Below the pieces are notes generated by a model. The model ran no database searches. It was not told the DNA's origin and saw nothing but the letters and a program-made list of their open reading frames with translations. The translations under genes were made by a program, and so were the position numbers. From Frateuria flava (lineage in GTDB: Bacteria; Pseudomonadota; Gammaproteobacteria; Xanthomonadales; Rhodanobacteraceae): a stretch of 64,000 nucleotides of DNA. Every line of letters begins with the position of its first letter. The first letter of the stretch is position 1. The stretch lies in NCBI RefSeq assembly GCF_017837635.1, contig NZ_JAGJRS010000016.1:1-64000 (forward strand). The letters are read 5' to 3'. Shown one piece after another: positions 39,982 through 42,704 of this stretch.

Positions 39982-40833
<852 letters not shown>

Positions 40834-40861
40834 GTGGAACCTCCGGCAAGTAAATCGCAGC

Positions 40862-40888
40862 TTAGCACTCGTCTGCTGAGAGTGCTAA
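40862..40888 (-). promoter_or_regulatory. CIRCE operator (HrcA site) before rpoH
   Basis: TTAGCACTC at 40862-40870, a 9-bp spacer and GAGTGCTAA at 40880-40888: a perfect match to the CIRCE consensus TTAGCACTC-N9-GAGTGCTAA bound by the HrcA repressor. It lies 29-55 bp before the rpoH ATG. If transcription begins from the TACAAT box, it falls inside the transcribed leader, the usual position for CIRCE. Confidence 0.92.
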
Positions 40889-40917
40889 AGGGGCGAAAAG
40901 TTTCAGCTGCGGGATTT

Positions 40918-40923
40918 ATTGTA
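40918..40923 (-). promoter_or_regulatory. putative -10 box of rpoH promoter
   Basis: TACAAT on the minus strand (40923-40918), about 85 bp before the rpoH start and upstream of CIRCE. The -35 is weak (CTTCCA at 16-bp spacing). Assignment by eye. Confidence 0.5.
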
Positions 40924-41038
40924 CCGAATCGTACAGCAATGGAAGCGGCCTGGCCAGCCCCTCGCCGCACGGTCATGCCGCCATTGTTCATAGCGGCGAT
41001 CTATCGACCGTGAACGGGTAACCGGGCCCGGCAGCCGC

Positions 41039-41755
41039 TCAGGCGGCGCGTTCCGAACGCGGCGGCAGCGACCAGTCGATCGGCGGCTGGCCGTGGCCTT
41101 CCAGGTAGCGGTTGGCGGCCGAGAAATGGCCATTGCCGATAAAGCCCCGGTGCGCCGACAGCGGCGAGGGGTGCACCGAGCTCAGCACCAGATGCCGGCG
41201 TGGGTCCACCAGCCGTCCCTTGCGCTGCGCGTAGGCGCCCCAGAGCAGGAACACGAGGCCTTCGCGCTCGCGGTTCAAGGCCTCGATGGCGGCGTCGGTG
41301 AAGCCTTCCCAGCCCTTGTTCTGGTGCGCGCCGGCACGGCCCTGCTCGACTGTCAGAACGCTGTTGAGCAGCAGCACGCCCTGGTCGGCCCAGGAGGTGA
41401 GGCAGCCATGGCCGGGCCGCGGAATGCCGAGGTCGCGTTCGATCTCGGCGAAGATGTTGTTGAGCGAGGGCGGCACCGGCACGCCCGGGCGTACCGAGAA
41501 ACAGAGCCCGTGCGCCTGGCCGGGGCCGTGGTAGGGGTCCTGGCCCAGGATCACCACGCGCACCTTGTCGAACGGCGTGTGCGCGAAGGCGTTGAAGATC
41601 TCCGGGCGGGGCGGATAGAGCACCTTGCCGGCACGCTTCTGTGCACGCAGAAATTCCGCCAGTTCGCGCATCTCCGGGCGCTCCAGGTAATCGCCCAGAT
41701 GCGCCTTCCAGGACGGCTCCAGGCGGACGCGTTCGGCGTCGGCCGTTTCGCTCAC
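41039..41755 (-). CDS. ung: uracil-DNA glycosylase
   Basis: A 238-residue family-1 UDG that removes uracil from DNA in base-excision repair. The water-activating motif GQDPYHG (71-77, catalytic Asp73), LLLNSVLTV, and the DNA-intercalation motif HPSPLS (195-200) are all intact. The start is a GTG overlapping the stop of the preceding receiver-protein gene (GTGA), so translation is coupled to it. The length is normal. Confidence 0.97.
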
Positions 41756-42585
41756 GCGTCTTGCGCCCGCGCGCGCAGGTGCTTGGCCACCCGCAGCTGG
41801 AACAGGAGTTTGGTCACCAGCAGCTTTTCCTCGACCGGTTTCTCGACCAGGTCGTTGGCACCGGCCTTGAGCAGCGCGGCCTGGTTGGCCGGGTTTTCAT
41901 CGCCGGTCATCACCAGTACGGGAAGCTCGCCTTTGCCATAGCCGAAATGGCTGCGGATACGCTCCAGCAGGTCGCCGCCGGTCAGCTCGCCCTTCAGGCT
42001 GACGTCCGTGAGCACCACGTCGGCGCCGATCTGGCCTTGCGCGCGATCGGTTTCCAGCATGGCGAGGGCATCCTCCACGCTGACCACGTGGCGCACGGTC
42101 AGGCCGATCTTTTCGAGCATGCGGCGGGTGGCCAGCGCCACCACGCGGCTGTCTTCCACGTACAGCACGGTGCCTTCGGCGGTCGCCTCCGGGCGCACAT
42201 AGCCACGGATGAAATCGGCCAGCGCCTGGAAGCCGAGCGACTTGTCGAAGTAGTCGGTGACGTCGCCCAGTTCGCGCTTGTGCAGGCGAGCATCGACATC
42301 ACCGGAAACCACCACGATCGGCACATAGGCCTGCGCCGACTCACGCACGTGGCGGGCCAGTTCCAGCCCGTCCATGTCGGGCAGGCGCAGGGCGATGGTG
42401 ATGAAGTCGAACGGGCCTTGCTCGATCAGCGCGCGCGCCTCCGCGCCGCTACCGCAATCGACCAGTTCGGCTTCCGGCAACTCGGCCTTGAGCACGCGCG
42501 TGATCAGCTGGCGCACCACCTTGGAGCCGTCGACCACCAGCACCCGCGGTGCGGTGTCGGCGCGGCTGCCAACCTCTGCATTCAT
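41752..42585 (-). CDS. double-receiver response regulator
   Basis: A 277-residue protein of two response-regulator receiver domains and no output domain. The second (about 140-265) is complete: acidic pair in YVEDS, phospho-Asp in [15 protein letters not shown], and the lysine in VEKPV. The first (about 14-130) has VVDGS with only one acidic residue, and [12 protein letters not shown] with alanine in place of the phospho-acceptor Asp, so it is a pseudo-receiver. The ATG at 42585 starts close to the first beta-strand. No histidine kinase gene is nearby. Confidence 0.88.
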
Positions 42586-42704
42586 GCCCCACCCATCCAC
42601 ATCGAACCCTTGTGTGCGCCCCGCGCGCACCCGAGGCTATCTTGCATCATCGCGCCTTGCACGGGTGCGAAGGCGATCACTAAGGCGCCTGGCGCCCAAG
42701 GCTC

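Follow-up and report, generated by a model that had tools for sequence, protein, structure and literature searches.

A perfect CIRCE element before rpoH in Frateuria flava and its predicted overlap with a sigma-E-type promoter

Introduction

Teaching usually presents sigma-32 and HrcA as alternatives, each with a heat-shock circuit of its own. Sigma-32, encoded by rpoH, drives groESL, and the HrcA repressor of Bacillus subtilis needs GroEL to remain active. Escherichia coli rpoH has a sigma-E-dependent promoter, P3; sequences of the form GGAACTT-N16-TCTAA, with a −10 of the TCnnA type, resemble the sigma-E consensus.

A sigma-E-dependent P3 promoter is also described for rpoH of Pseudomonas aeruginosa (PMC9866376). 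For the rpoH leader of Geobacter sulfurreducens, comparison led in 2004 to the prediction of a perfect CIRCE at −51 relative to the gene start (PMC545781, Table 8), so that CIRCE at rpoH is not new in itself. Like the genome studied here, that species also carries CIRCE before groESL; it belongs, however, to another class, has a further element at hrcA-grpE-dnaKJ, where hrcA of Frateuria flava lacks one within 3 mismatches, and no sigma-E promoter at rpoH is mentioned in the consulted parts of the same paper (PMC545781). Control of groESL by CIRCE and HrcA involves the same operator and repressor as are proposed here for rpoH. A CIRCE joined with a sigma-E-like promoter at rpoH was not found described in the passages of open-access literature examined, whilst earlier surveys beyond these may list rpoH sites.

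Results

The rpoH leader of Frateuria flava

The window, by which we mean the whole 64,000-nucleotide stretch of DNA analysed, contains rpoH on the minus strand, with dinG on the plus strand past its end and ung, a two-receiver-domain protein, ftsX and ftsE upstream on the minus strand; the nearest named RpoH is that of Dyella flagellata (90% identical). The protein between ung and ftsX (41752-42630, minus strand) has two response-regulator receiver domains and no output domain by NCBIfam. The 205 bp gap between ung and rpoH contains the regulatory region, and the features of the locus are as follows.

39982..40833, minus strand: rpoH, heat-shock sigma factor sigma-32, 283 aa (TIGR02392, 411.7 bits, cut-off 323.1)
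40840..40844, minus strand: GGAGG, likely rpoH ribosome-binding site (from sequence; conserved in the alignment)
40862..40888, minus strand: CIRCE (HrcA operator), perfect; along rpoH, left arm 40888-40880, loop 40879-40871, right arm 40870-40862
40877..40881, minus strand: TCTCA as candidate sigma-E −10, its TC closing the left arm of CIRCE and its other three bases opening the loop
40898..40904, minus strand: GAAACTT as candidate sigma-E −35 (consensus GGAACTT), separated from TCTCA by 16 nt
40918..40923, minus strand: TACAAT box
40928..40933, minus strand: candidate housekeeping promoter P1 −10, TACGAT (TACnAT in alignment A1), 17 nt from the −35
40951..40956, minus strand: candidate P1 −35, TGGCCA (consensus TGGACA in alignment A1, 14 leaders)
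41039..41755, minus strand: ung, uracil-DNA glycosylase, upstream neighbour

The original prediction, a perfect CIRCE ahead of rpoH, is confirmed: TTAGCACTC-N9-GAGTGCTAA at 40862-40888 of the minus strand has 0 mismatches in 18 arm positions and is the sole match in the window with ≤3 mismatches. Dinucleotide shuffles of the window gave CIRCE matches in 0/100, which together with the perfect match excludes a chance origin. Between the operator and the rpoH ATG (40833) we measure 28 nt, in agreement with the distance first reported. A scan of the whole assembly at ≤3 mismatches yielded two sites, one at rpoH and one, with one mismatch, in the groES leader, the latter answering the proposal that other CIRCE elements be sought in the genome; a reversed control pattern gave 0 matches across the assembly. 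The same scan found no CIRCE of its own at hrcA within 3 mismatches.

The presence of hrcA, on which the prediction had been made to depend beforehand, was also established: the gene (C28:142385) scores 304.7 bits against TIGR00331, over the cut-off of 197.2, and adjoins grpE on a contig other than that of rpoH. The genome likewise encodes rpoE (C17:17365; TIGR02939, 315 bits, cut-off 236.15).

The CIRCE had further been placed downstream of a TACAAT box. This box is present at 40923-40918, but its assignment as a promoter is not supported: TACGAT, which begins 10 nt upstream of TACAAT, is the better conserved across alignment A1 (14 leaders; its T, A, C and last T are invariant, its A nearly so) and has a TGGACA-like −35 in place 17 nt before it, so that TACAAT is probably not the −10. 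The housekeeping promoter of rpoH in the window is more likely this TGGACA-like box with TACnAT. A strict sigma-70 scan of 40800-41060 found no promoter, and a search by eye for a sigma-32 promoter before rpoH (CTTGAA-N12..15-CCCC) gave only CTGAAAC 6 nt from CCCC. Across the likely P1 −10 runs an inverted repeat, TGTAC-N6-GTACA (40920-40935). All 14 leaders of A1 share its TGTAC half, and the other half is variable.

Conservation in the family and the sister family

Conservation in the rpoH leaders of close relatives, the other point on which the original proposal hung, is clear. The window's family was identified as Rhodanobacteraceae from the match to RpoH of Dyella flagellata. From 41 genomes of this family searched, the best-matching 30 of 41 leaders were read, and 29 of these carry CIRCE with ≤2 mismatches, the single leader lacking a recognisable element being L384. 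The loop and flanks vary among these leaders while the arms hold at 0-2 mismatches, and the element in the window occupies, 28 nt before rpoH, a conserved leader position of a heat-shock gene. Across the order, some CIRCE with ≤2 mismatches, before whichever gene, occurs in 106/200 genomes, and in 52/52 of the window's family.

The sister family is presumed to be the Lysobacteraceae, to which Xanthomonas belongs, on the near identity of some of its leaders with the Xanthomonas pisi leader (L005). Of its 60 rpoH loci 30 were read, and 23/30 have CIRCE within 3 mismatches whilst 7/30 exceed this limit; when C or G is allowed at arm position 7 and its mirror, 24/30 fall within 4 mismatches, and the rest of the 30 are without a site. 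Conservation at rpoH is accordingly looser there than in the window's family. Both arms have switched to the CAGTC/GACTG form in 15 of the 24 rpoH sites, for which reason strict searches under-count this family.

This switch concerns CIRCE base pair 7/21, which at rpoH (L304-L333) has gone from C/G to G/C in 15/24 sites; in the groESL leaders of the same family (L334-L363) the pair is C/G in 17, C/C in 7, G/C in 4 and G/G in 1 of 29. HrcA of the sister family may tolerate, or prefer, another base at this pair. Ahead of the sigma-E-like −35, some rpoH leaders of this family (e.g. L305, L314, L318) also have the inverted repeat GTTCC-N6-GGAAC; it is exact in 3/30 and within one mismatch in 14/30.

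Co-occurrence of CIRCE at rpoH with hrcA

A class sample of 140 genomes, one per family (Gammaproteobacteria, betas included), yielded rpoH in 130/140 and hrcA in 105/140; ten genomes gave no rpoH match at the cut-off, and a second rpoH of G278 was left out. All 130 leaders were read, with CIRCE scored at ≤3 mismatches. The element stands before rpoH in 90/98 genomes with hrcA vs 5/32 without (Fisher p = 5e-16, which overstates the certainty because the families share kinship and are not independent). It is unrecognisable at rpoH in the remaining 8/98 with hrcA and lacking in 27/32 without.

Genomes in which hrcA was not found and CIRCE (0-3 mismatches) nevertheless precedes rpoH are G366, G329, G359, G262 and G313, together with L012, L044 and L058; these cases may reflect assembly gaps, a recent loss of hrcA or a different protein that recognises the site.

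A second set, which agrees with this result, comprised 80 rpoH loci from named genomes, possibly overlapping with the class sample, and CIRCE was found at 42/80, two loci holding little or no leader (L059, L075) being counted as lacking it. Fifty of these genomes were searched for hrcA, which was found in 26/29 with CIRCE vs 5/21 without, the 26 including on a weak match Pseudoalteromonas luteoviolacea (L027, genome G032), whose rpoH has a perfect CIRCE and whose only HrcA match scores 46.6 bits. In other classes of the phylum 88 genomes had an rpoH match, and 40 leaders, hand-picked for family spread, were read: CIRCE within 3 mismatches occurs in 2/40 and with 4 mismatches in 1/40.

The placement of CIRCE at rpoH had been put forward as unusual. 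That view is not supported, in light of the 90/98 class genomes with hrcA and the 2004 prediction in Geobacter sulfurreducens; judged from genome sequence, CIRCE at rpoH is common among relatives owning hrcA and far more general than first thought.

A predicted sigma-E-like promoter fused with CIRCE

The 95 CIRCE-bearing class leaders share a second signal. GAAC ends 10-12 nt upstream of CIRCE in 62/95 (at exactly 11 in 51) and occurs at any other offset within 60 nt in ≤3/95; the commonest bases around it give GGAACTT. Read with the loop bases that follow it, the TC at the end of the left arm gives TCTAA in 23/95, TCTCA in 17/95 and TCTTA in 7/95, and the resulting layout is GAACTT-N16-TCTAA/TCTCA, with a −10 composed of left-arm TC and loop. 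When a sigma-E-like pattern (GAAC-N17..19-TCnnA) was compared with 200 rounds of shuffled upstream bases, matches with the −10 inside CIRCE were found in 57/95 leaders (shuffles mean 0.7, maximum 4), 46 of the 57 with a spacer of 16, and matches wholly upstream of CIRCE in 9/95 (shuffles mean 0.4, maximum 3). The −35 and −10 boxes go together, loop base 3 being A in 57/62 leaders with GAAC vs 15/33 without (p = 1e-6). Operator and promoter are separable, since 29/95 leaders, the window included, have no sigma-E-like match near CIRCE and the 9/95 have theirs wholly upstream.

The groES leaders provide a control. In the class, where the best-matching 30 of 138 genomes were read and 4 over-limit sites left out, 26 CIRCEs with ≤3 mismatches have GAAC at the rpoH position in 0/26 and no sigma-E-like match; in the sister family, with the best-matching 30 of 60 read and one over-limit site left out, GAAC is in position at 20/24 rpoH sites vs 0/29 groESL sites. 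Loop base 3 is A in 72/95 rpoH vs 6/26 groESL CIRCEs, by which a loop bias general to CIRCE was rejected. Unlike the rpoH elements, groESL CIRCEs directly follow a −10-like hexamer (CTATTA in 8/26), with TTGA upstream in 23/26.

T stands three bases past the end of CIRCE in 84/95 rpoH vs 4/26 groESL leaders, and TAA[AT]AT follows in 56/95 vs 1/26; this could be a sigma-70 −10 with the CIRCE left arm as its −35. The corresponding region of the window (GCTAAGCTGCG) has no TAA[AT]AT box.

The P3 type of rpoH promoter offers a comparison, as 9 of 24 named loci devoid of CIRCE have a sigma-E-like match, e.g. GAACTT-N16-TCTGA in Lelliottia (L056, L063); these 24 differ in having no CIRCE, and hrcA was not found in 12/12 of their genomes tested.

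The sigma-E-like elements of the window

In the family (best 30 of 41 leaders) an AAC core lies 10-12 nt before CIRCE in 29/30 and GAAC in 26/30, and TCTCA or TCCAA takes the −10 position in 22/30. The window reads GAAACTT-N16-TCTCA, in which the AACTT core and the spacing of 16 are kept and the second G of GGAACTT is lost; it and two same-genus relatives are without GAAC, and it fails the strict GAAC pattern. Its −35 is the best-scoring of the region, at 5.2 bits vs 12.2 for the consensus. The complete GGAACTT occurs, for instance, in the leader of Dyella flagellata (L004). Given the lost G and the failed strict pattern, the sigma-E promoter of rpoH in this genome is likely weak, and this loss counts against the composite reading for the window genome.

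HrcA might on that account repress rpoH only via the upstream housekeeping promoter, the sigma-E promoter being dead in the genus and AACTT/TCTCA a relic. All three leaders from the genus have A or C where GGAAC has its second G, against GAAC in 26/30 of the family. This would fit, as would a −35 scoring 5.2 of 12.2 bits and the conserved P1 elements (TGGACA-like and TACnAT, 14 leaders). We nevertheless consider it possible but somewhat unlikely, as the window keeps the AAC core, the 16-nt spacing and TCTCA, and only 0.2% of shuffled versions of its leader show AACTT at either gap.

The inverted repeat as RNA

The inverted repeat might instead work chiefly at the RNA level, as a hairpin of the rpoH leader that controls stability or, by temperature, translation. 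The leader does fold better than all 200 shuffles (z −3.84), and in the genus CIRCE is enclosed by an outer GCAGC/GCTGC stem. By eye, however, other genera show no such stem, the presence of CIRCE goes with hrcA, and sigma-E transcripts would begin inside the repeat, lacking its left arm. GGAGG has at least 4/5 bases paired in 27/30 family folds, yet the partners change (by eye), and no Rfam family reaches threshold. We regard this explanation as very improbable.

In the window genus the strong fold spans 40852-40917, with GCAGC before and GCTGC after CIRCE. An RNA thermometer at the rpoH start, with the GGAGG of the window paired to early codons, was rejected, as the partners shift across the 30 family leaders, and an Rfam rsmX hit was likewise discarded (18.8 vs a threshold of 56 bits, in the coding region, on the other strand).

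Relics of CIRCE may exist, because five class genomes without hrcA keep the element, but the notion that the element at rpoH is an inherited remnant without function there is likewise very improbable, given 18/18 intact arm bases in the window, 0-2 mismatches in 29/30 family leaders though loop and flanks differ, and 27/32 genomes without hrcA that are also without the site.

Discussion

We hold with good confidence that the site at 40862-40888 is a working HrcA operator which represses rpoH, overlapping a sigma-E-type −10 and obstructing the housekeeping promoter. The data behind this reading are the layout of the leader, hrcA and rpoE in the genome along with another CIRCE at groESL, the conservation of the element, its co-occurrence with hrcA and the fixed spacing of the −35. 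The original prediction had made rpoH an HrcA target that joins the two heat-shock systems. Its genomic part is upheld by the presence of hrcA, the 29/30 family leaders and the 90/98 vs 5/32 genomes of the class; the joining itself we infer, and with it HrcA binding, repression, GroEL dependence, sigma-E use and the transcription starts at rpoH.

Bound to CIRCE, HrcA would mask the sigma-E −10 of rpoH and so compete with sigma-E polymerase, and, with CIRCE predicted to lie about 35 nt inside the P1 transcript, it would also block P1 as an obstacle. If GroEL keeps HrcA active, as in other bacteria, rpoH would be held low; misfolded proteins occupying GroEL would cause HrcA to release, whereupon rpoH could be read by both sigma-70 and sigma-E polymerase, and loss of active HrcA would mean more sigma-32. 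Since groESL has its own CIRCE, HrcA would control groESL both directly and through sigma-32, in a feed-forward loop closed by GroEL.

One published time course counts against this scheme. In Xylella fastidiosa under nitrogen starvation, a four-fold rise of hrcA at 2 h is followed by a two-fold rise of rpoH at 8 and 12 h (PMC3224663), which is not as simple repression would predict if rpoH carries a CIRCE there. In Cupriavidus metallidurans, a mutation upstream of rpoH is reported to have no reporter effect (PMC13192273).

For the class as a whole, we lean towards an ancestral rpoH promoter of Gammaproteobacteria (betas included) in which a sigma-E promoter and an HrcA operator were fused and competed; Escherichia coli would then be derived, having lost hrcA and the operator and kept P3. 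Where operator and sigma-E −10 overlap, envelope stress would meet cytoplasmic folding stress in a testable junction at the level of single bases. Should HrcA target rpoH in most hrcA-bearing families, sigma-32 and HrcA would form one hierarchical circuit, and the Escherichia coli model would miss a layer present in much of its class.
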